The position numbers were made by a program, and so were the translations under genes. Shown in pieces: positions 36,731-48,030 of a DNA stretch of 48,030 nt. The DNA comes from Acrocarpospora macrocephala (GTDB lineage: Bacteria; Actinomycetota; Actinomycetes; Streptosporangiales; Streptosporangiaceae): NCBI RefSeq assembly GCF_009687865.1, contig NZ_BLAE01000087.1:1-48030 (forward strand), given 5' to 3'. A model generated the notes under the pieces. It did not search any database, had not been told where the DNA came from, and saw nothing but the letters and a program-made list of their open reading frames with translations. Positions within the stretch are counted from its first letter, which is position 1; each line of letters starts with the position of its first letter.

Positions 36731-36764
36731 ACGCGAGCGTAACCAAATCCGGTTACGCCCGCGT
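36731..36764. promoter_or_regulatory. 34-bp palindrome between divergent genes
   Basis: GCGTAACC (36737-36744), a 6-base AT-rich centre and GGTTACGC (36751-36758) are perfectly symmetric, and the symmetry extends outward with ACGCG/CGCGT after one mismatch. It lies 55 bases from the regulator start and 55 bases from the MBOAT start, well placed to control both directions. Confidence 0.75.
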
Positions 36765-36819
36765 GATCGGGTACTTGCTGGAATTCCGGGCGTTGGCCTC
36801 CGCTATCCCCGGGACACCG

Positions 36820-38247
36820 ATGTCGTTCGCCTCCCCTCTGTTCCTGTGGTTCTTCATGCCGGTCACGCTGCTGGCCTGCTGGCTGCTGCCGCCGCGCCAC
36901 CGCAACGGGGTCGTCGCCGCGGCCAGCCTGTTCTTCTACACCTGGGGCGCAGGGCCGTACACCGTGCTGCTGCTGTCGGCCATCGCCGTCAACTACGGGG
37001 CGGGGCTCGCGCTTGACTCGGTACGGCTGCGGGACAGGCCGTGCGCACGCAGGGCAGTCCTGGTGGCGACCGTCGGGTGGGATGTGGCGATTCTTGCGGT
37101 CTGGAAGTACGCCGGTTTCGCCAGCCGGCAGATCGACGCGCTGTCGGGCCTGCTGGGACTGGGCGACACCCCGATCGTGGCTCTCGCCCTGCCGATCGGA
37201 ATATCGTTCTTCACCTTCCACCACCTTTCCTATGTGGTGGACGTTTACCGGGGTAGCACGCCCGCCCAGCGAAGCCCCGTCCGGTTCATCACGTACATCA
37301 CGATGTTCCCCCAGCTCGTCGCCGGGCCGATCGTTCGCTACCACGAGATCGCCGCACAGCTGGACGACACCCGCCGCGACCGCTTCGGTGGCCTCGCCGT
37401 CGGGTTTCCCCGCTTTGCCCTGGGGCTGGCCAAGAAAGTGATCGTCGCCGACTCGCTCGCCCCCGTGGTGGACGCCGCGTTCGCGCACGAAGGCGGTCAA
37501 CTCACGACCGCGACGGCGTGGCTGGGAGCCTTGGCGTACACCCTGCAGATCTACTTCGATTTCTCCGGCTACTCGGACATGGCCATCGGCCTGGGCATGA
37601 TGGTCGGATTCCGGCTTCCGGAGAACTTCAACCGGCCGTACTCGGCGTACTCCATCACCGACTTCTGGCGGCGCTGGCACATGTCGCTGTCCCGCTGGTT
37701 CCGCGACTACGTCTATATCCCGCTTGGCGGCAACCGCGGTGGCGCCCCGCGGACCTACCGCAATCTACTGATCATCTTTGTGCTCTGCGGCTTCTGGCAT
37801 GGAGCCGAATGGACCTTCCTGGTGTGGGGCCTGTACCACGGCGGCCTGCTGGTGGCCGAACGGCTGCTCGGCTGGGACCGCCCGCCCCGCGCTGTCTGGG
37901 CCCTGGCGCTCCGGCGCGGCACGACCCTCCTGCTGGTCGTGGTCGGCTGGGTGCTCTTCCGGTCGCAGAGCATGGCCGAGGCAGCGGACATGCTGCAGGC
38001 GATGTTCACCTGGAGGCCGGGTGGTCTGGAGGAGTTCGCCGTGAACCGCCAGCGGATGCTCACCTTCGCGCTGGCGCTGGTCGTCGTGGCATTGCCGGCC
38101 TCGCGCGCGCTCGGCCCACTGATCGAATCGGAACGGGGACCGGCGGCGTGGGTGGCGCGTTCCGCGCTGACGTGGGTGGCCGCCCCGTACGCGGCGATGC
38201 TGGTCGCCGCCGGCACCTTCAGCCCTTTCCTCTACTACCAGTTCTGA
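36820..38247 (+). CDS. MBOAT O-acyltransferase (AlgI/DltB-like)
   Basis: Polytopic membrane enzyme of 475 residues that passes acetyl or other acyl groups across the membrane to cell-surface polymers. The N-terminus MSFASPLFLWFFMPVTLLA is typical of AlgI-type proteins and fixes the ATG at 36820. Conserved motifs are QLVAGPIVRYHEI, DFWRRWHMSLSRWFRDYVYI (His287), and the presumed catalytic His327 in CGFWHGAEWTFLVWG. The gene is followed 13 bases on by an AlgJ/AlgX-like gene, so together they form a complete O-acetylation module. Confidence 0.92.
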   Translation: MSFASPLFLWFFMPVTLLACWLLPPRHRNGVVAAASLFFYTWGAGPYTVLLLSAIAVNYGAGLALDSVRLRDRPCARRAVLVATVGWDVAILAVWKYAGFASRQIDALSGLLGLGDTPIVALALPIGISFFTFHHLSYVVDVYRGSTPAQRSPVRFITYITMFPQLVAGPIVRYHEIAAQLDDTRRDRFGGLAVGFPRFALGLAKKVIVADSLAPVVDAAFAHEGGQLTTATAWLGALAYTLQIYFDFSGYSDMAIGLGMMVGFRLPENFNRPYSAYSITDFWRRWHMSLSRWFRDYVYIPLGGNRGGAPRTYRNLLIIFVLCGFWHGAEWTFLVWGLYHGGLLVAERLLGWDRPPRAVWALALRRGTTLLLVVVGWVLFRSQSMAEAADMLQAMFTWRPGGLEEFAVNRQRMLTFALALVVVALPASRALGPLIESERGPAAWVARSALTWVAAPYAAMLVAAGTFSPFLYYQF

Positions 38248-38260
38248 GTGAGGGACACCG

Positions 38261-39385
38261 ATGACCGTAGCGCGAGGGCCGTTGCTGGCGGCGGCGCTGT
38301 TCTTCTTCGGTCCCGCCCTGGCCTTCGCCGCGGGCGATCGTGCGGCGGAGATCGAGAACCGGAGGCTGCCGCAGCCTCCGGCGTTGTCGCGCGGCTGGGA
38401 TGTCATCCCGGACACGGAGGCCTGGGCGACCGCTCACCTGCCACTGCGACAGCACGCGGTACGCGGCAACGCCACCCTGTCGGACTTCCTGTTCGGGCAC
38501 GCCCCGTCGTACGGCACGGGTTACCCGCGGGTGATCGAGGGGCGCGACGGCTGGCTCTACTTCGGTGACGATGTCACCGAAGCCTGCCGACCGCGCTGGT
38601 CCATCGCCGAAACCCTCGATCGCCTGCGTCGTCTGGCCGAGATCGTACGAAAGTCCGGCAGGCGATTCCTGTTCACAGTCGCCCCCGACAAGACCACGAT
38701 CTCCCCGAACCGGCTGCCGGAGAGCTTCCCCGGCCAGGACTGCCTGCGGAAACGCAAGCAGGAGTTCTGGGCCGCGCTGCGGGCGGCACATCTGCCCGGT
38801 TACGTGGATCTTCGGGGTCCGCTGGAGCGGGCGCAGCTGGAGTCCGGCACGCCGGCGTACTGGCGGACCGACAGCCACTGGACCGAACACTCCGCCGGAC
38901 TGTACGGAATCGAGCTGGCCCGTACCCTCCACCCTGGCCTGTCCCGGCACACCCGGCTGGTGAAGGTCGGGCAGATGGCGCGAAAGGGAGACCTAGGCGG
39001 GCTGCTGGGCGCGCCCCGCGAGGAGATCATCGACCGGTGGCGCCTGGTCCGGGACGGCGTACAGCAGCTCAGGAAGGACGACCGCGAGCTGCCCGCGTCG
39101 TTCAGCATCGCGAACGCCTCGGACCGCGCGCCGCTGTTCCAGCCCAGGTCCCTGCTCATCGGCGACTCGTTCACCCGCAACTCGCTGCCGTGGGTGCTCC
39201 CCTACTTCGCCGACCTCACCTACCTGCGCAGCGATGCGCCCGCCACGGCGGGGCCGGACCACGTCGCACACAAGATGGCCCAGAGCGAAACGGTGGTGTT
39301 GGAGATCGTGGAGCGCTATCTCGTCGGCGGCCACGCCGAGATGCTGGACGACGCCATGCTCGCCGCCCTCGACCGAACGCTCTGA
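38261..39385 (+). CDS. AlgJ/AlgX-like extracytoplasmic acetyltransferase
   Basis: Exported or membrane-anchored SGNH-type protein of 374 residues with an N-terminal signal sequence (LLAAALFFFGPALAFAAG). RDGWLYFGDD is the family's entry motif. The catalytic pieces are Asp204 and His206 (RTDSHWTEHSAG) and the nucleophile Ser303 (LLIGDSFTRN). It is expected to receive acyl groups from the MBOAT partner and place them on an extracellular glycan. The polymer is unknown and no glycosyltransferase is nearby. A 33-bp piece covering its stop codon is repeated at 46342. Confidence 0.88.
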   Translation: MTVARGPLLAAALFFFGPALAFAAGDRAAEIENRRLPQPPALSRGWDVIPDTEAWATAHLPLRQHAVRGNATLSDFLFGHAPSYGTGYPRVIEGRDGWLYFGDDVTEACRPRWSIAETLDRLRRLAEIVRKSGRRFLFTVAPDKTTISPNRLPESFPGQDCLRKRKQEFWAALRAAHLPGYVDLRGPLERAQLESGTPAYWRTDSHWTEHSAGLYGIELARTLHPGLSRHTRLVKVGQMARKGDLGGLLGAPREEIIDRWRLVRDGVQQLRKDDRELPASFSIANASDRAPLFQPRSLLIGDSFTRNSLPWVLPYFADLTYLRSDAPATAGPDHVAHKMAQSETVVLEIVERYLVGGHAEMLDDAMLAALDRTL

Positions 39386-39459
39386 GCGTTGTACGGCGGG
39401 CGTCTTTGTCGGCGGTGACTGCTAGAAATTGACTTCCCCGCCTTCGCTGAGGAGTCCCA

Positions 39460-40383
39460 GTGATCCACGCGCATCTCACCGAATTCCACGGCCTGCCCGT
39501 TCGCTACGTCCACCAGGAAGCCGGTGCGACGGCCTCGCAGGTCGCCTGGCGCGTCCAAGGGGATTCGTACGAGGAACATGAGGAGACCTTCGCCGACATC
39601 TTTGAGCTACTGCTCGACTGGGACGACTGCGATGACGTGCGGGCGCTCGTCGTGGGCACGTGGGGGTCGGCCCACAACAACGACCGAGCCGATGTGCCGG
39701 TCCGGTTGCTCGTCGAGGCCGCGCCCCGGCTCCCCGCGTTGGAGGCGATCTTTCTCGGCGACTATGTCAGCGAGGAGTCCGAGATCTCCTGGATCGGGCA
39801 GACCGACGTGACGCCCCTCCTGACCGCCTACCCCCGGTTGAAGCGACTCGACGTTCGCGGCAGCGACGGGCTCGGATTCCGGCCCGTCGTCCACACCGCG
39901 CTCGAGACGCTCCGTTTCGAGTCCGGCGGCTTGCCCGCCGCCGTGGTCCGCGCGATCGGCGCGTCCTCGCTGCCCGCGCTCCGCCATCTGGAACTGTGGC
40001 TCGGTGACGAGCAGTACCAGGGGGATTCCGGGCCGGACGACTGGGCGGCGATCCTCGCGGGCGGCGGCCTGCCCGCGCTGACCCATCTGGGCCTCCAGGA
40101 CAGCGTCCGGCAGGACGAAGTGGCCGCTGCCGTGGCCACCGCGCCGATCGTGGCCCGGCTGGAGTCGCTCGATCTGTCCATGGGCGTCCTGACCGACGCG
40201 GGTGCCGAGGCGCTGCTGTCCGGCCAGCCGCTCACCCACCTCAAGCGGCTCAATCTCCGTCATCACTACCTGAGCGAGGAGATGGCCGCGAATATCGCGG
40301 ACGGGCTCAGTGGCGTCGAGGTCGACCTGTCTGACCGGCAGGATCCTGAGGAGGACTGGCGCTACATCGAGGTGTCCGAGTGA
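39460..40383 (+). CDS. STM4015-family leucine-rich-repeat-like protein
   Basis: First gene of a five-gene operon; 307 residues. The N-terminal ~90 residues (YEEHEETFADIFELLLDWDD) are followed by leucine-rich-repeat-like turns such as LPALEAIFLGDY, YPRLKRLDVRGS, LPALRHLELWLGD and LTHLKRLNLRHHYLS, so the fold is probably a solenoid used for protein contacts. I recognise it as the family named after Salmonella locus STM4015. GTG start with GAGGAG 5 bases before it. Its stop overlaps the next start (GTGA). No catalytic motif is seen; a scaffold or substrate-recognition role is inference. Confidence 0.85.
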   Translation: MIHAHLTEFHGLPVRYVHQEAGATASQVAWRVQGDSYEEHEETFADIFELLLDWDDCDDVRALVVGTWGSAHNNDRADVPVRLLVEAAPRLPALEAIFLGDYVSEESEISWIGQTDVTPLLTAYPRLKRLDVRGSDGLGFRPVVHTALETLRFESGGLPAAVVRAIGASSLPALRHLELWLGDEQYQGDSGPDDWAAILAGGGLPALTHLGLQDSVRQDEVAAAVATAPIVARLESLDLSMGVLTDAGAEALLSGQPLTHLKRLNLRHHYLSEEMAANIADGLSGVEVDLSDRQDPEEDWRYIEVSE

Positions 40384-41504
40384 CCGTGGCCGGTGCCACC
40401 GGGGAAACACCGGCGTTCGCGGTCGTCGGCACGCCGGGGGACCGGCGGGTGGACATGTTCACGTCTGCGCTGCGCGCCCACGGACTGCCCGAACCGTCCG
40501 TAATTGCCTGGCGTGACGTGCTCGCCGGGGCGGAGGTGCGCATTCCGGAGCGGGCACTCGTCCGCGTCGACTCGCCCGGAGAGGACGCCGAGGCCGACGC
40601 GTTGCTGCGGGGCCCCGGCTCGCCCACCCGGGTCGGAGGCGGGGCGTCCTGGCATGCCGCGTTCGTGCGCGGTCTCGAACGGGTGCGGCGGGCCGTGGCG
40701 CGGACGCCGGGCGCGCGGCTGCTGGGGGACGTCGAGGAGATCGCCGTGATGTTCGACAAGCGGCGGTGCCACGCCCGCCTGCTGGCCGCGGGTGTGCCCG
40801 TCCCGCCTGCTCTCGCCGCGCCGATCGACGGCTACTCCCACCTGCGCGAGCTCATGACACGAGCGGGCTGGAGCAGGGTGTTCGTCAAGCCGGCCCACGG
40901 CTCGTCCGCTTCGGGAGTCGTGGCGCTCCAGGTCCGGGGTACTCAGGTCAACGCGGTTAGTTCCGTCGAGCTCATTCGCCCCTGGTCGGGACACGCCGAG
41001 CTGCACAACTCGCTTCGCGTACGCACCTATACCGACGAGGCGGAGCTGGCCGTGATCATCGATGCGCTCGCCCCCGACGGGCTGCATGTGGAGCGCTGGT
41101 TCCCCAAGGCCTCGTGGAACGGACAGGTGTTCGACCTCCGCGTCGTCGTGATCGGCGGGCGGCCCACGCATGTCGTTGTCCGCGCTGGCCGTACCCCCAT
41201 GAGCAATCTGCACCTGGGCGGCGCTCGTGGTGATCTGGAGCAGGTCCGGGCCCGGCTGGGGGAGGCGGGATGGGAGCGAGCCATGCGTATCTGCTCGCGC
41301 GCGGCCGCCTGTTTTCCCGGTTCGCTCATGGTCGGCGTCGACCTGATGGTGGGCATTACCTGGCGCCGCTTCGCCGTGGCGGAGGTGAACGCCTTCGGGG
41401 ACCTGCTGCCCCGGCTCACCGGACTTCCCGAGAGTGGTGTTCGCGATCTGGACAGCTATGGCGCGCAGGTGGCATGCGTCCTTTCGCCCTGGAGGGCGGC
41501 ATGA
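40380..41504 (+). CDS. STM4014-family ATP-grasp protein
   Basis: Protein of 374 residues with an ATP-grasp-like arrangement: Lys170 in RVFVKPAHGSSASG, the acid/base pair in FDLRVVVIGGRPTHVVVR (Asp252, Arg254), and the metal-binding Glu335 and Asn337 in VAEVNAFGD. Such enzymes join a carboxylate to an amine, thiol or hydroxyl through an acyl-phosphate. It corresponds to the Salmonella STM4014 family; no substrate is known to me. Translation is coupled on both sides (GTGA in, ATGA out). Confidence 0.83.
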   Translation: MTVAGATGETPAFAVVGTPGDRRVDMFTSALRAHGLPEPSVIAWRDVLAGAEVRIPERALVRVDSPGEDAEADALLRGPGSPTRVGGGASWHAAFVRGLERVRRAVARTPGARLLGDVEEIAVMFDKRRCHARLLAAGVPVPPALAAPIDGYSHLRELMTRAGWSRVFVKPAHGSSASGVVALQVRGTQVNAVSSVELIRPWSGHAELHNSLRVRTYTDEAELAVIIDALAPDGLHVERWFPKASWNGQVFDLRVVVIGGRPTHVVVRAGRTPMSNLHLGGARGDLEQVRARLGEAGWERAMRICSRAAACFPGSLMVGVDLMVGITWRRFAVAEVNAFGDLLPRLTGLPESGVRDLDSYGAQVACVLSPWRAA

Positions 41505-42307
41505 GGAACATGCGCGCGATCATCGGCACGCACGACCTGCTGCTGATCACCCTCGACACTCTGCGCTATGACGTCGCGGCTGAGCTGCTGGACCAGGGCA
41601 GGCTCCCCACGCTGGCGCGCGTGCTGCCGGGCGGCGGGTGGGAGCGGCGGCACTCGCCGGGCAGCTTCACCTATGCCGCGCACGCGGCGATCCTGGCCGG
41701 CTTCCTGCCCACCCCTGCCGACCCGGGTCCGCACCCCAGGCTGTTCGCCGCCTCCTTCCCCGGCAGTGAGACCACCGCCGCGGGCACCTGGGTATTCGAC
41801 GCGGGCGATCTGCCGGGCGGGCTGGCCGGTGTGGGCTATCACACGGTGTGCGTCGGCGGCGTCGGCTTCTTCAACAAGCTGACGCCGCTCGGTGCGGCAT
41901 TGCCGTCGATGTTCGCCGAGTCGCACTGGCAGCCGTCGTTCGGGGTCACTTCGCCGACCTCCTTCGAGGAGCAGATCACCTGCGCCGAGCGGGTGGTGCA
42001 CGACCGCGCGGAACCGGTGTTCCTGCTCGTCAACGTGTCGGCACTGCACCAGCCGAACTACTTCTACCTGCCCGGCGCGACCGACGACTCGCGCGCCACG
42101 CACGCCGCCGCGCTTGAGTACGTCGACCGGCACATCGGCCGCCTCTTCGCCTTGATGACCGCGCGCCGGCCATGCCTGGCCATCATTTGCTCGGATCATG
42201 GAACCGCCTACGGCGAAGACGGATATGTCGGTCACCGCATCGGCCACGAGGTGGTCTGGACGGTCCCCTACGGCGAATTCGTGCTTCAACCAGGAGAGTG
42301 GCCTTGA
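41501..42307 (+). CDS. STM4013-family alkaline-phosphatase-superfamily hydrolase
   Basis: Protein of 268 residues with the metal site of the sulfatase/phosphatase superfamily: Asp19 (LLLITLDTLRYD), a candidate nucleophile Ser55 or Thr57 in SFTYAAH, and Asp232, His233 and His245 in CSDHGTAYGEDGYVGHR. It has no signal peptide, so it should act in the cytoplasm, unlike most alkaline phosphatases. It matches the STM4013/SEN3800 hydrolase family. Start ATG overlaps the previous stop; the stop overlaps the next start as TTGA. Confidence 0.85.
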   Translation: MRNMRAIIGTHDLLLITLDTLRYDVAAELLDQGRLPTLARVLPGGGWERRHSPGSFTYAAHAAILAGFLPTPADPGPHPRLFAASFPGSETTAAGTWVFDAGDLPGGLAGVGYHTVCVGGVGFFNKLTPLGAALPSMFAESHWQPSFGVTSPTSFEEQITCAERVVHDRAEPVFLLVNVSALHQPNYFYLPGATDDSRATHAAALEYVDRHIGRLFALMTARRPCLAIICSDHGTAYGEDGYVGHRIGHEVVWTVPYGEFVLQPGEWP

Positions 42308-43590
42308 GGCCTTATGAAGGGTACGTCTACGCCTATCCACACAAAACGGCGTACCGCCCGCTTGACCCGCGCCCGCCGCTCAAGGAGGTCTGGGCGGACG
42401 AGCGTACTGACGCGCTCTTCCTCTACCTGCATGTCCCCTTTTGTGAGATGCGGTGCGGCTTCTGCAACCTGTTCACCAGGACCGGCGCCCCGGCGGACCT
42501 CGTCACTTCCTACCTCGACGCGCTCCAGCGCCAGGCGGAAGTCGTGCGCCAGGCCCTGCCACCCACCACCCGCTTCGCCACCGCGGCCATCGGTGGCGGC
42601 ACGCCCACCTACCTGGAGGCCGCGGAACTGTCCCGTCTTCTCGACCTGGCCAAGCAGACCATGGGCGCCGACTTCTCCACCACCCCGCTCGCGATCGAGA
42701 CCTCCCCGGCCACCGCCACCCCCGATCGCCTGGCTGTCCTCGCCGAACATGGCACCAGGCGCATCTCGATCGGCGTACAGAGCTTCATCGACGCCGAGGC
42801 CAGAGCCGCACTGCGCCCACAGCGCCGCGCCGAGGTCGAAACCGCCCTGGCCGCCATCCGCACGGCCGCGTTTCCCACGCTCAACATTGATCTGATCTAC
42901 GGCATCGACGGCCAAACATCCGCGACCTGGCGCCAATCCCTCGACGCGGCCCTTGCCTGGCACCCGGAAGAGATCTACCTCTACCCGCTCTACGTCCGAC
43001 CGCTCACCGGCTTGGGACGACACGGCCGCGACTGGGACGACCAGCGCCTCACGCTCTACCGCCAGGGCCGCGACCACCTGCTGACCTCCGGCTACGAACA
43101 GGTCTCCATGCGGATGTTCCGGCTGCCCGGCACGGACTCCGGCACCGGCTACTGCTGCCAGCGCGACGGCATGGTCGGTCTCGGCTGCGGTGCCCGTTCG
43201 TATACGTCGCGCCTGCATTACTCCTTCGAGTACGCCGTGGGCGTACGTCACGTACGCGCGATCATCGACGAGTTCGTCCAGCTGCCGCGCCCCGCGTTCG
43301 CCTTCGCCAACATCGGCTTCGCCCTCGACGACGGCGAACGTCGCCGCCGTCATCTCATCCAGTCTCTGCTCCAGGCGGAAGGCCTCGACCGTGCTGCCTA
43401 CCGGGGACGTTTCGGCAGCGACGCGCTTGAGGACTTCCCGCTCGAGGCTTTGGCGGAACGCGGCTGGGTGGAGGACGACTCCGCTCGCGTAGGGCTGACC
43501 CCCGAGGGCCTGGCCTATTCCGACGCCATCGGCCCCGCCCTCTTCTCAGACCGGGTCCGCGACCTGATGGATTCCTATGGCCTCCGCTGA
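42304..43590 (+). CDS. STM4012-family radical SAM protein (HemW-like)
   Basis: Radical SAM enzyme of 428 residues in the coproporphyrinogen-dehydrogenase-like group. Cys47, Cys51 and Cys54 (PFCEMRCGFCNLF) bind the [4Fe-4S] cluster. GGGTPTYL and the HemN/HemW-type RISIGVQSF and NIDLIYGIDGQT follow. The C-terminal ~90 residues form a winged-helix-like domain. TTG at 42304 is chosen because AGGAGAG lies 6 bases upstream and it overlaps the previous stop; GTG at 42298 would sit on the ribosome site. A fragment of a similar gene is at 34459. True heme chemistry is not implied by the context. Confidence 0.87.
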   Translation: MRPYEGYVYAYPHKTAYRPLDPRPPLKEVWADERTDALFLYLHVPFCEMRCGFCNLFTRTGAPADLVTSYLDALQRQAEVVRQALPPTTRFATAAIGGGTPTYLEAAELSRLLDLAKQTMGADFSTTPLAIETSPATATPDRLAVLAEHGTRRISIGVQSFIDAEARAALRPQRRAEVETALAAIRTAAFPTLNIDLIYGIDGQTSATWRQSLDAALAWHPEEIYLYPLYVRPLTGLGRHGRDWDDQRLTLYRQGRDHLLTSGYEQVSMRMFRLPGTDSGTGYCCQRDGMVGLGCGARSYTSRLHYSFEYAVGVRHVRAIIDEFVQLPRPAFAFANIGFALDDGERRRRHLIQSLLQAEGLDRAAYRGRFGSDALEDFPLEALAERGWVEDDSARVGLTPEGLAYSDAIGPALFSDRVRDLMDSYGLR

Positions 43591-44536
43591 CGGTGCCGGG
43601 GAATCGGCCGGGCGGGTGCCGCTGTCGATCTGGGACATCACGCCCCGGCACGTGGACGCGCCGCCGGTTGGTGCCGTTTCCAGGCCCCGGGAGCTGACCA
43701 TTCTCTACCGGGGTCCATTGGCCAGCTGTGACTATGACTGCGCGTACTGCCCCTTCGCGAAGCGTCGCGACAGCCCCGCCCGGTTACGCGCCGACCGGGA
43801 GGCGCTGGCCCGCTTCACCGGATGGGTCGCGGCGCAGGACTTCCCGATCTCGGTGCTGTTCACGCCGTGGGGTGAGGCGCTCGTCAGATCGTGGTACCGC
43901 ACGGCGATGATGGAATTGAGCCACCTGGCCCACGTCCCCAGGGTGGCCATCCAGACCAACCTGAGCAGCCGGCTGACCTGGCTCGCCGGAGCCGACCTGG
44001 ACACGCTCGCCCTCTGGGTCACCTACCATCCCAGCCAGGTGACGCACGACCGGTTCCTGGCCAGATGCCGGGAGTTGCTCACCCGCGGAGTGCGTTTCAG
44101 CGTGGGCGTGGTCGGCATGCCCGACCAGGTCGAGCAGGCCAGGCGGCTGCGGGCGGAACTGCCTGCCGAGGTCTATCTATGGATCAATGCCGCCGAAGGC
44201 CATGCCTACTCCGATCAGGAGGCGGCGATCTGGACGGCCATCGACCCATTGTTCGACTACAGCAGGCAGCCACACCGCAGCTTCGGGCTGCCCTGCCGCA
44301 CCGGCCAGACCGTGGTGTCCGTCGACGGCGAGGGCACAGTGCGGCGATGCCACTTCGTCATGCAGACGATCGGCAACCTCTACGACGGGTCAGCCCTGCG
44401 TGCACTCCGACCCCGCCCGTGCCCGCTTCCCGTGTGCGACTGCCACATCGGATATGTCCATCTCGAACCGCTTGACCTCTACCGGACGTTCGCCGGTGGC
44501 CTGCTCGAACGCGTGCCCGCCGGCTGGCCATGTTGA
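43577..44536 (+). CDS. STM4011-family radical SAM protein
   Basis: Last gene of the operon; up to 319 residues. Cys-x3-Cys-x2-Cys is SCDYDCAYCPFAK (cluster cysteines near residues 51-58). The C-terminal region has RRCHFVMQTIGNLYDG and PVCDCHIGYVHL, resembling the auxiliary-cluster (SPASM/Twitch) region of peptide- and small-molecule-modifying enzymes. The ATG at 43577 lies 14 bases inside the previous gene; family members often begin nearer TILYRGPL, so the N-terminal ~40 residues are uncertain. It abuts the convergent DUF6745-like gene with no spacer. Confidence 0.86.
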   Translation: MASADGAGESAGRVPLSIWDITPRHVDAPPVGAVSRPRELTILYRGPLASCDYDCAYCPFAKRRDSPARLRADREALARFTGWVAAQDFPISVLFTPWGEALVRSWYRTAMMELSHLAHVPRVAIQTNLSSRLTWLAGADLDTLALWVTYHPSQVTHDRFLARCRELLTRGVRFSVGVVGMPDQVEQARRLRAELPAEVYLWINAAEGHAYSDQEAAIWTAIDPLFDYSRQPHRSFGLPCRTGQTVVSVDGEGTVRRCHFVMQTIGNLYDGSALRALRPRPCPLPVCDCHIGYVHLEPLDLYRTFAGGLLERVPAGWPC

Positions 44537-45745
44537 TCAGGTCTGCTGCACCGGGGCGTACTGTTCCTCGGATAGGCCGAAGGTCCATGCGACGCCTTGG
44601 CGTGCGCTGGTGACCCACGGCGGCACCCGCAGGAAGTAGGTTCGGCGGGTGCCATCGGGCTCCGGAGTGGAGTTGATCACCTCGACCATGACGAGGGGCT
44701 CGTCGTCGGCGAGTTCAGCCCTCCAGAGCACCCCGGTGTTGTCCTTGTGAATAGCGGCGGCTCCGGACTCCTTCAGGTAGCGATCGAGTCCGTAGTGTTC
44801 GAGCATCACCCGGCGCAACTCGGCGTTGGACTCCAGCCTGATGCTCGTCGCGGACAGATCGGCCATGGTGGCACCGAACTCTGGAGGGACGGGCATGCCG
44901 TGCCAGGCGTGCAGCGCGAACCCGTCCGAAAAGGCGAGCGCAGGGCCCACAGCTCGGTGCAGGCGCCCCAGGTCGTCACGGTGCAGTTCGACCGGGCGCT
45001 CACAAATCAGGACGACCCGCTCGAACGGCCACCACCATCCGGCTTCCCGTGCCACGCGCATCAGGCCGCTGATCGGGGTGAGATCGATCTCGAAGGTCTG
45101 CTCTAGGCCCGCGAAGAACGCGAGCCAGGGAGCGTCGTGCTGCCCGAGAACCGCGCCGAGGGTCGCCCGGCGAAGTAGGGCCTCGACCTGACCGTCCATT
45201 TCTCCCTGGCCGCGCGGTTCTGGCCGACGGGCCGCTGGCACGGTCGGTTCCGCAGGCGCGGTGGTTTGCGCGGGTGCGGCAGCCAGGTGACCGATGCCCC
45301 GCCGTATCTCACCCACAAGCCGGTTGACCCCCGGCCACAAGTTCGCGTTGATGAACTCCCACGCCGCAGCCCAGGCGACGGGCGTGAGCAGGGAGACGGC
45401 CTGGGCTCTGACCCGTTCCCACTGCTGGGTTCTGACGACGTCGCGGACGAGTGACCCGGGAACGAGCCCGTGGAGCGCCGGGGGGAGGACCTTCGATTCC
45501 CGGAGGGTGCTGCGGGCTGCTGTGTCACCGGCGAGGACCACGGCGGCTACGGCGGCTTGCGCGGGCGAGGCGAACCAGATGATCTGCTCCGGTTCGGGCA
45601 GTCCGGCGTCGCGGTATGCGGCGCGGACGCCTTCCTCGGCCGCGGCACGGTTCGCCGGCCCGGTGGCGTGGGCGGCGAGGTCCCACTGGTCGACGGCGTC
45701 GGCGAGACACGCGGCCAGTTCGGGCGGGAGGGCAAGGGTGGTCAT
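44537..45745 (-). CDS. DUF6745-like protein, function unknown
   Basis: Protein of 402 residues. The N-terminal part is helical and Ala-rich, followed by a Pro/Ala linker (about 155-180). The C-terminal region holds the strongest motifs: WWWPFERVVLICERP, LAFSDGFALHAWHGMPVP and YFLRVPPWV, which I associate with the DUF6745 family. It has no recognisable catalytic signature. It is preceded 45 bases upstream by a small histidine-rich gene on the same strand, and the two are probably an operon. The gene ends exactly where the STM4011-family gene ends, facing it. Confidence 0.78.
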   Translation of the reverse strand: MTTLALPPELAACLADAVDQWDLAAHATGPANRAAAEEGVRAAYRDAGLPEPEQIIWFASPAQAAVAAVVLAGDTAARSTLRESKVLPPALHGLVPGSLVRDVVRTQQWERVRAQAVSLLTPVAWAAAWEFINANLWPGVNRLVGEIRRGIGHLAAAPAQTTAPAEPTVPAARRPEPRGQGEMDGQVEALLRRATLGAVLGQHDAPWLAFFAGLEQTFEIDLTPISGLMRVAREAGWWWPFERVVLICERPVELHRDDLGRLHRAVGPALAFSDGFALHAWHGMPVPPEFGATMADLSATSIRLESNAELRRVMLEHYGLDRYLKESGAAAIHKDNTGVLWRAELADDEPLVMVEVINSTPEPDGTRRTYFLRVPPWVTSARQGVAWTFGLSEEQYAPVQQT

Positions 45746-45790
45746 GGTTTTCCTGGTTGTCGAGGGGCGGGCAGCGGACCGGCCGTGTCT

Positions 45791-46111
45791 CTAGTCGGCG
45801 ACGTATCGGCGGTAGGTGCCGGGCACGTATTCCCACTGCCGCACCACCCGGAACCACCCTTTCGGCAGCGAGATAACGGCATGCTCCTCGTGCACCAGCC
45901 GCCCGCCCTCCGGTAGATGAAGGAACTCGGGAACTCCGGAATCCCGGCCTAAAAGCAACGTGCCGGGACCCGGAATGGCATGCGCATGTCCAGTCGCCTC
46001 ACCAAGTGCCAAAACCAGCCGGCCGCGCGCGTCCCGGGACGCGGCTTGCAGATGCTCGGGCACTGATTCGCCGTCGACCGGCATGATCAGAATGTCTCCC
46101 TGACGGAACAC
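45791..46111 (-). CDS. Small histidine-rich protein, possibly cupin-like
   Basis: Protein of 106 residues. GTG at 46111 is chosen because GAGGAGG lies 4 bases upstream; a longer open frame runs into the direct repeat and is not credible. Beta-rich pattern FRQGDILIMPV, then GEATGHAHAI (His42, His44), FLHLPEGG (His65) and VHEEHAVISLP (His74, His77) suggest a small barrel with a metal site. No named family was recognised. It precedes the DUF6745-like gene and is likely its functional partner (inference from spacing). Confidence 0.75.
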   Translation of the reverse strand: MFRQGDILIMPVDGESVPEHLQAASRDARGRLVLALGEATGHAHAIPGPGTLLLGRDSGVPEFLHLPEGGRLVHEEHAVISLPKGWFRVVRQWEYVPGTYRRYVAD

Positions 46112-46212
46112 GGAACCTCCTCGTCGTTGCTTGAGAAGGTAGAGGCCGGCACCGACAATTCCGCTCCGTCGAGGCGCGCGCAGGGGTTTCTTGGTCGTGT
46201 GCGGCTGGGGGT

Positions 46213-46341: not shown

Positions 46342-46374
46342 TCTCGACCAGACGCTCTGATCGTTGTACGGCGG
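46342..46374 (+). pseudogene. Scrap of an AlgJ-like gene 3' end
   Basis: 33 bases match 39368-39400 with three differences. They cover the last codons (LDQTL against LDRTL), the stop codon and the next 15 bases of the AlgJ-like gene. No more of that gene is present here. Confidence 0.75.
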
Positions 46375-46375
46375 G

Positions 46376-46582
46376 GGCGCTCCCGGTGATTGCGGCGTGC
46401 TCACGCTCGCGGGGCGCGCCGACAGAGAGGACCTCGGCTACCAGGCACTCCTTGGGGTGATCAACATCGGAGTTGGCTCCCGCTTCCATGATCGTGCGTT
46501 GGAGGCGCTGCGCGTCGCCGCCACGCGGGCGACGGGTCGCGTGGGCGATACCGCTCGCGACTACCTTGAGACGTTGCCCTGA
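46376..46582 (+). pseudogene. Truncated coding remnant, unknown
   Basis: An open stretch with fair codon bias and no credible start encodes LGYQALLGVINIGVG and then ALRVAATRATGRVGDTARDY, a helical pattern like one or two HEAT-type repeats, before a stop. It is probably the 3' end of a gene whose front was lost when the AlgJ-like scrap joined here. Family not recognised. Confidence 0.4.
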
Positions 46583-46610
46583 TGGCCTGAGGCGCCGCGA
46601 CGGGTAACGA

Positions 46611-46790
46611 ACCGGGCTCAGCACGGATACAGCGGTCGCGCCAGTCCTTGATCCGGTTGATGCAGCGTTCGGCCGTGTTGCGTTCCTTGTACAGATCCCG
46701 GTCATGGCGGATTGGGCGGCCACCCCGCGATCCGCGGTTCTTACGGTTGGGCGCCTGGTCGGCTTTCTCGGGAATCACCGCCCGGATACG
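46611..46790 (-). mobile_element. IS5-type transposase remnant
   Basis: The minus strand encodes RIRAVIPEKADQ, NRGSRGGRP and LYKERNTAERCINRIKDWRD, which match the C-terminal catalytic part (with the DDE glutamate in ERC-N-R-K) of IS5-family transposases. Neither the N-terminal domain nor terminal inverted repeats are visible, so it is a dead fragment of about 180 bp. Confidence 0.82.
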
Positions 46791-46895
46791 GTGCCGGCGC
46801 TCCGGGCGCGGGCGGTGAAGGTCTTCCACGACCACGGCGCCCGCGAATACGACGAGTTCACCGGCGGTCCGGCCGCCGAGGCCGCCGCGCGCTGA
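46787..46895 (+). pseudogene. 3' coding remnant, unknown
   Basis: A short frame with very strong G/C third positions encodes AVKVFHDHGAREYDEFTGG and an Ala-rich end, then stops. The upstream part is replaced by the transposase remnant, so it appears to be the tail of a gene cut by the insertion sequence. Family not recognised. Confidence 0.4.
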
Positions 46896-46990
46896 AAGCC
46901 GCCCGCCGCGGATTTTCAACGAAGTTTCAGCAGGCCCTTCGAATCTTCCGGTGTCAGCACGAAGCGCCACCCTCCACCGGAAGGATCCCC

Positions 46991-48030
46991 ATGAACCTCA
47001 CCCGCATAGGAGCACAGAGCGGCCTGCGATTCGCCCGCCGCCTCAGCGCCGGGCTGGCCACCACGGCTGTCCTGGGATCGGGATTGATCGCCATCACCAC
47101 GACGCCGGCCGCTGCCGTGTCCCGCGACTCCATCGTCTCGGTCGCGCAAAGCCAGCTGAACAACGCATCGCGCAACCACGAGCAGCCGCTGGGGAGCGGG
47201 TGCAACTACTACACCGGCTACTTCCGAACCTGGAAGCCCGCAGCCGGTTGCCCCGCCACCGACGGAGTTCAGTGGCGTGACAGCGACTGGTGCGCCGACT
47301 TCTCCAAGTACGTATGGAAGAACGCCGGCGTGCCGTACGCCGATGTGCCCGAGACCAGCGGAGGCGTGCTCACCGGCTGGGCCAGCTCGTTCAAGGACTA
47401 CGGCACGACGCACGGCACCTGGCACACCCGCGCCAGCGGCTACACACCGCAGCCGGGCGACGCCCTTGTCTTCGACTGGGACCAGAACGGCGTCATCGAT
47501 CACGTCGGGATCGTCAAGTCGGCGAGCGGCAGCACGGTCTACACCATCGAAGGCAACAGCGGCGATCGCATCAAGGAGAACAGTTACTCCCGCACCAACA
47601 TCGACATCGTCGGCTACTCCAGCCCCGTGGGTGCGGGTGATATCGACGACCCTCTTCCTGTTCCTGGCACTCCCTCTGGCGGTCCGGCGGTGGTGCACGA
47701 GGGCTTCGTCAGCATGTTCACGCGGAACGCCGCCGATGGTCATATCCAGGAGACGTACCTGCCGGGGATCGGCTCTCCCTGGTACAGCCAGGACATCAGC
47801 GCCGACGCCGGCACTCCGGCTTCCGCGACCAAGCCGGTCGCGGTGGTGCATGAGGGTTACACCAGTATCTTCACCGTCAACGCCTCGAACGGGCATCTCC
47901 AGGAGACCTATCTGCCCAGGGTTGGCGCGGCCTGGGTGACCCAGGACCTCAGCGTTGGTGCGGGCACTCCGGCGGCGGCCAATGTGACGCCTGCCGTGGT
48001 GGTGCATGAGGGTTACACCAGCGTCTTCAC
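46991..48030 (+). CDS. Secreted CHAP amidase with beta-rich repeats (incomplete)
   Basis: About 347 residues are visible and the gene continues past the window end. A signal peptide (residues 1-42, ending TPAAAVS) is followed by a CHAP peptidoglycan-hydrolase domain with Cys101 (DSDWCADFSKYVW), His171 (VIDHVGIV) and the third polar residue in IEGNSGD. From about 232 come tandem units of roughly 51 residues, AVVHEGYTSIFT...GHLQETYLP...WVTQDLS, two complete and a third cut off; they look like blades of a beta-propeller or lectin-like wall-binding module. GGAAGGA precedes the ATG. It follows the graveyard of insertion-sequence debris. Confidence 0.85.
   Translation, partial: MNLTRIGAQSGLRFARRLSAGLATTAVLGSGLIAITTTPAAAVSRDSIVSVAQSQLNNASRNHEQPLGSGCNYYTGYFRTWKPAAGCPATDGVQWRDSDWCADFSKYVWKNAGVPYADVPETSGGVLTGWASSFKDYGTTHGTWHTRASGYTPQPGDALVFDWDQNGVIDHVGIVKSASGSTVYTIEGNSGDRIKENSYSRTNIDIVGYSSPVGAGDIDDPLPVPGTPSGGPAVVHEGFVSMFTRNAADGHIQETYLPGIGSPWYSQDISADAGTPASATKPVAVVHEGYTSIFTVNASNGHLQETYLPRVGAAWVTQDLSVGAGTPAAANVTPAVVVHEGYTSVF

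Follow-up and report, generated by a model that had tools for sequence, protein, structure and literature searches.

Amino-group carrier proteins (AmCPs) use the gamma-carboxylate of a C-terminal glutamate, with acidic residues mediating electrostatic contacts to enzymes, and in pearlin biosynthesis an amino acid, for example 3-thiahomoleucine, is built at the C-terminus of a carrier peptide with radical S-adenosylmethionine (SAM) chemistry (PMC9303977 for both). We examined a gene set that is named by the Salmonella locus tags STM4011 to STM4015 alone, yet a single collection has at least 574 genome stretches that carry it. In Acrocarpospora macrocephala it lies within positions 1 to 48,030 of contig NZ_BLAE01000087.1, the whole stretch that was analysed and is here called the window. 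The set encodes a leucine-rich-repeat (LRR) protein, an ATP-grasp ligase, a hydrolase and two radical SAM enzymes. The new element that our analysis adds is a likely substrate, the LRR protein STM4015 with its terminal glutamate.

With the amino-group carrier pathways (LysW/LysX, Vzb22) the STM set shares the C-terminal glutamate, the acidic residues and an ATP-grasp enzyme of similar fold. In contrast to them it has an LRR domain rather than the small LysW domain, adds radical SAM enzymes to the operon, and has two or more STM4015 copies at 32 distinct loci; where those carriers combine a LysW domain with an EDWGE end, STM4015 has its LRR domain and mostly an RYxAVxE end. The pearlin pathways differ in other respects, as the STM set has a large folded carrier, and an ATP-grasp ligase in place of the PEARL ligase, to which no operon protein of the window is matched in NCBIfam or Pfam. 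Because LysW domain and PEARL ligase are both missing, the set is a member of neither group, though its way of working may be similar; it resembles a third solution beside them, built on an LRR carrier. Graspetide ligases such as PsnB, which acts on a precursor peptide, have the ATP-grasp fold in common with STM4014, but the STM set departs from graspetides in an STM4015 tail without a conserved ring donor, a folded LRR precursor and two radical SAM enzymes. In the literature searched, with most subscription journals outside it, the passages retrieved for STM4010 to STM4015 were table rows only, and the sole passage retrieved for the Enteritidis tags and STM4016 concerns STM4016; the same literature yielded nothing on DUF6745, a frequent partner of the set, nor on the combination of radical SAM, leucine-rich repeat, ATP-grasp and precursor.

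The five open reading frames (ORFs) of the window run head to tail on the forward strand with overlaps of GTGA, ATGA, TTGA and 14 bases, as a first-pass annotation made from the sequence alone had described, and profile searches bear out the family names it gave, placing all five proteins above the NCBIfam cut-offs by wide margins. STM4015 (39460..40383, 307 amino acids) scores 358.5 bits against NF038076 (cut-off 275) and matches PDB entry 2RA8 by profile at E 2e-93. It is followed by the ATP-grasp ligase STM4014 (40380..41504, 374 amino acids; NF038074, 422 bits, cut-off 175), the alkaline-phosphatase-superfamily hydrolase STM4013 (41501..42307, 268 amino acids; NF038075, 410.9 bits, cut-off 250), the HemN-like radical SAM enzyme STM4012 (42304..43590, 428 amino acids, TTG start; NF006067, 636.8 bits, cut-off 380) and the radical SAM enzyme STM4011 (43577..44536, 319 amino acids; NF038073, 397.3 bits, cut-off 200), which is partly SPASM-like, with five extra conserved cysteines. 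All are members of families whose names carry no function. The annotation had spoken of a complete five-enzyme system; complete it is, but the label is inexact, because the LRR protein STM4015 matches no enzyme family in NCBIfam or Pfam.

Our reading turns on the C-terminus of STM4015. In the window the protein ends in WRYIEVSE (40357..40380, forward strand), with an acidic linker before it. The terminal glutamate is found in 133 of 135 distinct copies (135 of 137 ORFs with the duplicate locus included; 122 of 124 in the first set), and the two exceptions are pieces of apparently frameshifted genes whose partner piece ends in glutamate both times. Among 25 diverse sequences (19 actinobacterial, two from Deinococcus species, and one each from Methylobacterium, Paenibacillus, Salmonella and Bacteroides) this last residue is the sole invariant column beyond position 261. 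It recurs in all six phyla in which the family was detected, in tandem paralogues and in copies outside the operon: Streptomyces and Embleya copies of this kind retain the tail, as does an STM4015 on a Calothrix plasmid. Actinobacterial tails mostly read [Y/F]-[V/I/T]-A-V-x-E; across 124 ORFs, 57 have S, 31 have A and 25 have G at position -2, while 122 have Y or F at position -6. Beyond the final glutamate and nearby aromatics, hardly anything is shared by the Salmonella, Bacteroides and Paenibacillus tails. The strongest motif of the core is GDxxxEExEISWIxQ. We rejected the idea that such a tail is common among the host's proteins, since a degenerate pattern hits 3 places in the organism's own genome (one of them STM4015) against 2 in a reversed control. 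A solved member of the family is 2RA8 (Q64V53 of Bacteroides fragilis), which is labelled 'uncharacterized' and was found under neither identifier in the literature searched; its first 354 residues align with the WGR-LRR STM4015 of Bacteroides finegoldii as far as ..YPMITE, and 8 more residues follow.

Between the LRR domain and the tail lies a divergent, acidic linker, 26-41 residues long in 130 of 132 measured copies, with residues -24 to -9 on average 39% acidic. The contrast between linker and tail is clearest in paralogues. At the 93 distinct loci that have both STM4011 and STM4012, STM4015 is present once in 55, twice in 26 and three to five times in six, and the remaining six, without it, all start at a contig end. 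Once broken pieces and the duplicate locus are excluded, 59 paralogue pairs from 31 loci show a mean identity of 0.63 for the core, 0.16 for the linker and 0.76 for the last six residues (0.71 without the glutamate); the full 61 pairs give 0.62, 0.16 and 0.75. Because the tail ends almost always in glutamate, and because it is kept in paralogues, where the linker diverges, and in off-operon copies, we read STM4015 as a substrate or carrier and not as an enzyme, a role that fits better than the 'recognition scaffold' of the first-pass annotation.

Inheritance ties the other genes to STM4015. In an even sample of the phylum, 396 actinobacterial genomes with the window's included, STM4011, STM4013, STM4014 and STM4015 each occur in 6, and these are the identical six, among them the window's own; STM4012, a family not run on this sample, is in the operon of all six. 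A scan of the genome collection with an STM4011 alignment gave the at least 574 confirmed stretches, of which the best 80 were kept; because these are all actinobacterial by their titles, the detailed locus sample is weighted towards the window's lineage, and it presupposes STM4011. Among the matches listed in one genome collection, the closest STM4011 relatives are from Acrocarpospora (84-85% identity). A plasmid search returned 13 records and extended the range to Methylobacterium, Deinococcus, Paenibacillus, Salmonella and Bacteroides; 10 of the 13 were taken into the locus set. The 95 loci examined are 94 distinct ones, L016 and L096 being one record, and the order 15-14-13-12-11 holds in 84 of the 95 (one locus counted twice). 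Four loci are without STM4014 and one is without STM4013; five start at a contig end, three retaining 12-11 only and two beginning at 14; and the Bacteroides locus has STM4013 and STM4012 as fragments only.

Each of the four genomes without STM4014 in the operon has the gene elsewhere, always adjoining an STM4015 copy, which in one case is a truncated piece of 116 amino acids (L131) that is still Glu-terminated; we therefore rejected the idea that STM4014 is dispensable. The same holds for STM4013: Streptosporangium subroseum has a natural in-frame STM4014-STM4012 fusion (L043:7278-9764) and carries STM4013 on a separate contig, where other genes of the set were not recognised within 16 kb. 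As the displaced STM4014 and STM4013 were found elsewhere, the set stays complete though the operon is split, in the cases examined. The first-pass annotation had proposed a single pathway, an idea that would fail if the families rarely co-occurred or if the proteins matched well-characterised enzymes; both the co-occurrence survey and the enzyme comparison left it standing, and it is strongly supported by four families coinciding in 6 of 396 genomes and by the displaced genes that were looked for, which are still in the genome. The annotation was right on the families and is supported on the single pathway and on movement as a unit, and the role it gave the LRR protein is one part that we would change. 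One further genome has a second, unlinked STM4013 copy (G161:C52:2609-3379, 338 bits) and also an orphan STM4015 (L130).

An AlphaFold model of the ATP-grasp enzyme STM4014 (predicted local distance difference test, pLDDT, 92) has DcsG, PsnB, ArgX with LysW, LysX and Ddl as its top Foldseek matches; RimK and inositol-phosphate kinases come further down the list, and every one of these matches has E <=1e-9. Against ArgX of the ArgX-LysW complex the target-normalised template modelling (TM) score is 0.75. By profile, the three best matches are LysX entries (E 4e-5 to 7e-5). STM4014 is below the RimK-family cut-offs of NCBIfam, so that its LysX/ArgX-like assignment is one of fold group and partial profile matches. 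Invariant in 58 sequences are D321, E335, N337, K127 and K170. RimK adds glutamate to the C-terminus of ribosomal protein S6.

Of the two radical SAM enzymes, STM4011 has eight cysteines invariant in 25 sequences, the radical SAM residues C51, C55 and C58 and a further C240, C258, C282, C287 and C289. A full SPASM protein combines the radical SAM CX3CX2C motif with seven auxiliary cysteines, against five in STM4011. The sole PDB profile match below E 0.001 is the C-terminal region of SkfB (E 4e-4), and the structural model (pLDDT 79) has its best Foldseek neighbours, at TM near 0.5, in BlsE, CteB, SkfB, viperins, anSME and EpeE; as modelled, STM4011 resembles peptide-maturing radical SAM enzymes, among others. 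STM4012 had been described as HemW-like. It is a radical SAM enzyme and HemN-like by profile, its best solved relatives being HemN 1OLT (E 1e-51) and the methyltransferase NocN 9P2U (E 2e-31), but it is not HemW: it is below the curated cut-offs for both HemW (127 against 205.4 bits) and HemN (113.8 against 324.95 bits). The closest solved relative of STM4013 by profile is a nucleotide pyrophosphatase/phosphodiesterase (NPP-type, E 9e-9). Thr57 is invariant in 23 STM4013 sequences and stands, by our reading of the equivalence, at the likely nucleophile position, where a sulfatase with anSME-type maturation has the Cys or Ser that becomes formylglycine; because this likely nucleophile is an invariant threonine, we rejected formylglycine maturation of STM4013 by STM4011.

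With moderate confidence we favour a mechanism in which STM4014 loads the terminal glutamate of STM4015, an LRR-built carrier or substrate, and the radical SAM enzymes carry out the elaboration. The flexible acidic linker would offer the C-terminal tail (in Actinobacteria mostly [Y/F]-x-A-V-x-Glu-COOH) to the enzymes; STM4014 would activate a carboxylate of the terminal glutamate and couple an amine, probably an amino acid; STM4011 and STM4012 may bring about a rearrangement or alkylation, either of the tethered group or of the tail; and STM4013, as an NPP-like phosphoesterase, might take off a phosphoryl or nucleotidyl group or aid product release. The data establish the gene set, its joint inheritance, the fold classes, and the tail with its conservation in paralogues and off-operon copies; we infer the attachment site, the sequence of reactions, the substrate and the fate of the product, released or retained on the protein. 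The model is supported by the joint occurrence of four families in 6 of 396 genomes and by the displaced STM4014 genes adjoining STM4015 copies. Because about a third of loci have several diverged STM4015 copies, a group that remains on the protein is weakly favoured.

Several observations weigh against this mechanism. The LysX profile matches of STM4014 cover 67 positions only, and after them come biotin carboxylase and cyanophycin synthetase (E 2e-4 to 3.5e-4) and RimK (8e-4); Foldseek places DcsG and PsnB above ArgX, with D-Ala-D-Ala ligases and inositol-phosphate kinases close behind, and this ranking (DcsG, PsnB, Ddl) leaves room for a role of STM4014 as a free amino-acid ligase. The top Foldseek match of STM4011 is BlsE, and many viperins follow; these act on small molecules. 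The residues preceding the glutamate differ in Salmonella and Bacteroides STM4015, and STM4011 was not found on the Calothrix plasmid (the plasmid alone was searched) despite its Glu-terminated STM4015. The C-termini of DUF6745 and of a small His-rich protein that accompanies it are conserved too, so a conserved C-terminus alone is not special; what sets STM4015 apart is the variable linker preceding the conserved tail. A release enzyme was not identified among the neighbours, where other families reach at most 13 of 95 loci in a rough survey that includes spurious ORFs. Known carriers are small, and we know of no earlier example of an LRR carrier. We also considered a hidden small precursor peptide and set it aside, without a dedicated search, the largest other neighbour cluster being at 13 of 95 loci.

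The carrier mechanism can also be taken further. It is possible, though in our view rather unlikely, that STM4015 proteins are interchangeable LRR recognition heads that share a radical-built prosthetic group or warhead on the C-terminal glutamate: tandem LRR parts would diverge for different partners, while one enzyme set would arm every tail in trans.

The strongest competing explanation, which we consider rather unlikely, is that the enzymes make a free small molecule; STM4015 would then be a scaffold for docking, a sensor or an immunity protein, and its tail would mediate docking or oligomerisation. Protein binding is the usual role of LRR domains, the core motif GDxxxEExEISWIxQ could serve as a docking site, the STM4014 fold neighbours DcsG and Ddl act on free amino acids, and those of STM4011 include BlsE and viperin. 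Yet a docking motif would not require a fixed residue carrying the terminal carboxylate, the tail persists in off-operon copies and even in the truncated piece, six loci hold 3-5 STM4015 copies, and the one PDB profile match of STM4011 below E 0.001 is a peptide maturase, SkfB. Improbable in our view is a role of STM4015 as a protein tag whose C-terminal glutamate is joined by STM4014 to lysines of other proteins, the remaining enzymes preparing or reversing the tag. PafA joins Pup to protein lysines in this manner, Pup being small and disordered and its ligase glutamine-synthetase-like; the terminal glutamate, the acidic linker and an isopeptide bond compatible with ATP-grasp chemistry would fit, but the folded LRR domain is unlike Pup and the two radical SAM enzymes would be left unexplained. 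Least probable of all is an internal ester or amide ring formed by STM4014 in the STM4015 tail, as in graspetides, and followed by radical SAM changes: the graspetide ligase PsnB is second in the Foldseek ranking, but a conserved Ser, Thr or Lys donor was not found in the tails of 124 ORFs.

A role in anti-phage defence was rejected, as a scan of six proteins gave one weak partial PADLOC match (STM4012, E 8e-6). In a phage collection STM4011 matched two Salmonella records only, and a single viral-contig scan gave no confirmed relatives. One record with STM4011, the 5.9-kb OR850900.1, is labelled a Salmonella phage but could be host DNA.

Two more genes, usual companions of the operon, stand beside the five that the annotation had counted. 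A DUF6745 protein (44537..45745, reverse strand; PF20530, 333 bits) is a frequent but optional partner, and paired with it by co-occurrence is a small His-rich protein of 106 amino acids (45794..46111, reverse strand; GExTGHxH...HEEH). With these the window cassette comprises seven genes and is intact. DUF6745 accompanies the operon at 71 of 95 loci (70 of the 94 distinct ones), on the opposite strand downstream in 41 and upstream in 29, and upstream in the same direction in 1; 17 of the 24 loci without it had at least 3 kb on each side. Across 100 stretches, 71 have DUF6745 with the small protein, 1 has DUF6745 alone and none the small protein alone. Thirteen genomes or plasmid records lack a neighbouring DUF6745: a close copy lies elsewhere in 1, distant ones only in 2, and none at E 1e-20 in 10. 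A DUF6745 match above 330 bits was obtained in four of 392 genomes, each of them operon-bearing; two operon genomes are without it and five further genomes have more distant members. From these locus and genome counts the pair is therefore linked to the set but optional. In the small protein H42, H44, H74 and H77 are invariant in 30 sequences, which suggests a putative metal site. The organism's own genome has a second, divergent DUF6745 gene (G000:C6:8438-9001, 108 bits), and relatives of the small protein, queried with the Methylobacterium copy, were found in ten phage records, of which eight belong to Microcystis phages.

In Salmonella, a HAD hydrolase gene overlapping STM4011 takes the place of the DUF6745 pair. 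The Salmonella "plasmid" record L106 has the operon beside typA, glnA and hemN and looks like a chromosomal segment; in complete genomes of E. coli, a near DNA match to the Salmonella operon was not found. On the B. finegoldii plasmid (L107:6513-10530), STM4015 has a WGR domain, STM4013 and STM4012 are fragments, and STM4011 has a long C-terminal extension that is HAD-like by reading of its sequence.

The cassette appears to move, judging from its edges. A 33-base imperfect repeat flanks it on the forward strand, with the left copy (39368..39400) at the 3' end of an AlgX-like gene and the right copy at 46343..46375, 30 of 33 bases being identical; the segment that the annotation had called repeat-bounded thus exists. 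The 21-base core of the repeat, with at most 2 mismatches, occurs in the 12.1-Mb genome at the two flanking places and one more (2 mismatches), against zero in a reversed control. DNA similarity to another Acrocarpospora locus (L022) runs in two pieces from 39405 to 46168 and then ends, so that the repeats end 5 bases before the homologous block and begin 175 bases after it. A third locus (L021) has this same block alone in common with L022, within the stretches compared, and L023 shares the operon with the window, without DUF6745. The homologous block stops near the cassette edges and the surroundings differ in two close relatives, in the stretches compared, which supports movement as a unit. 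An integrase was not recognised among the cassette genes, though no search was aimed at integrases.

Upstream of the cassette lies an MBOAT and AlgX-like pair (36763-39385), which probably serves polysaccharide O-acetylation independently of the system. To the right, 46461-46970 has zero Pfam matches and is presumably a transposase remnant, of IS5-type resemblance, and a 42-base repeat occurs three times at 47680-48030, with a spacing of 153-156 bases and the last copy finishing at the window end.

The tail of STM4015 makes the system testable concretely and cheaply. If the carrier mechanism is true, it would extend carrier-bound biosynthesis to folded LRR proteins, and two radical enzymes would probably be making a hitherto unknown amino-acid-derived group. 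Should that group stay on the protein as a shared prosthetic group, these LRR proteins would be a class with a genetically uncoupled, enzyme-built C-terminal functional group.

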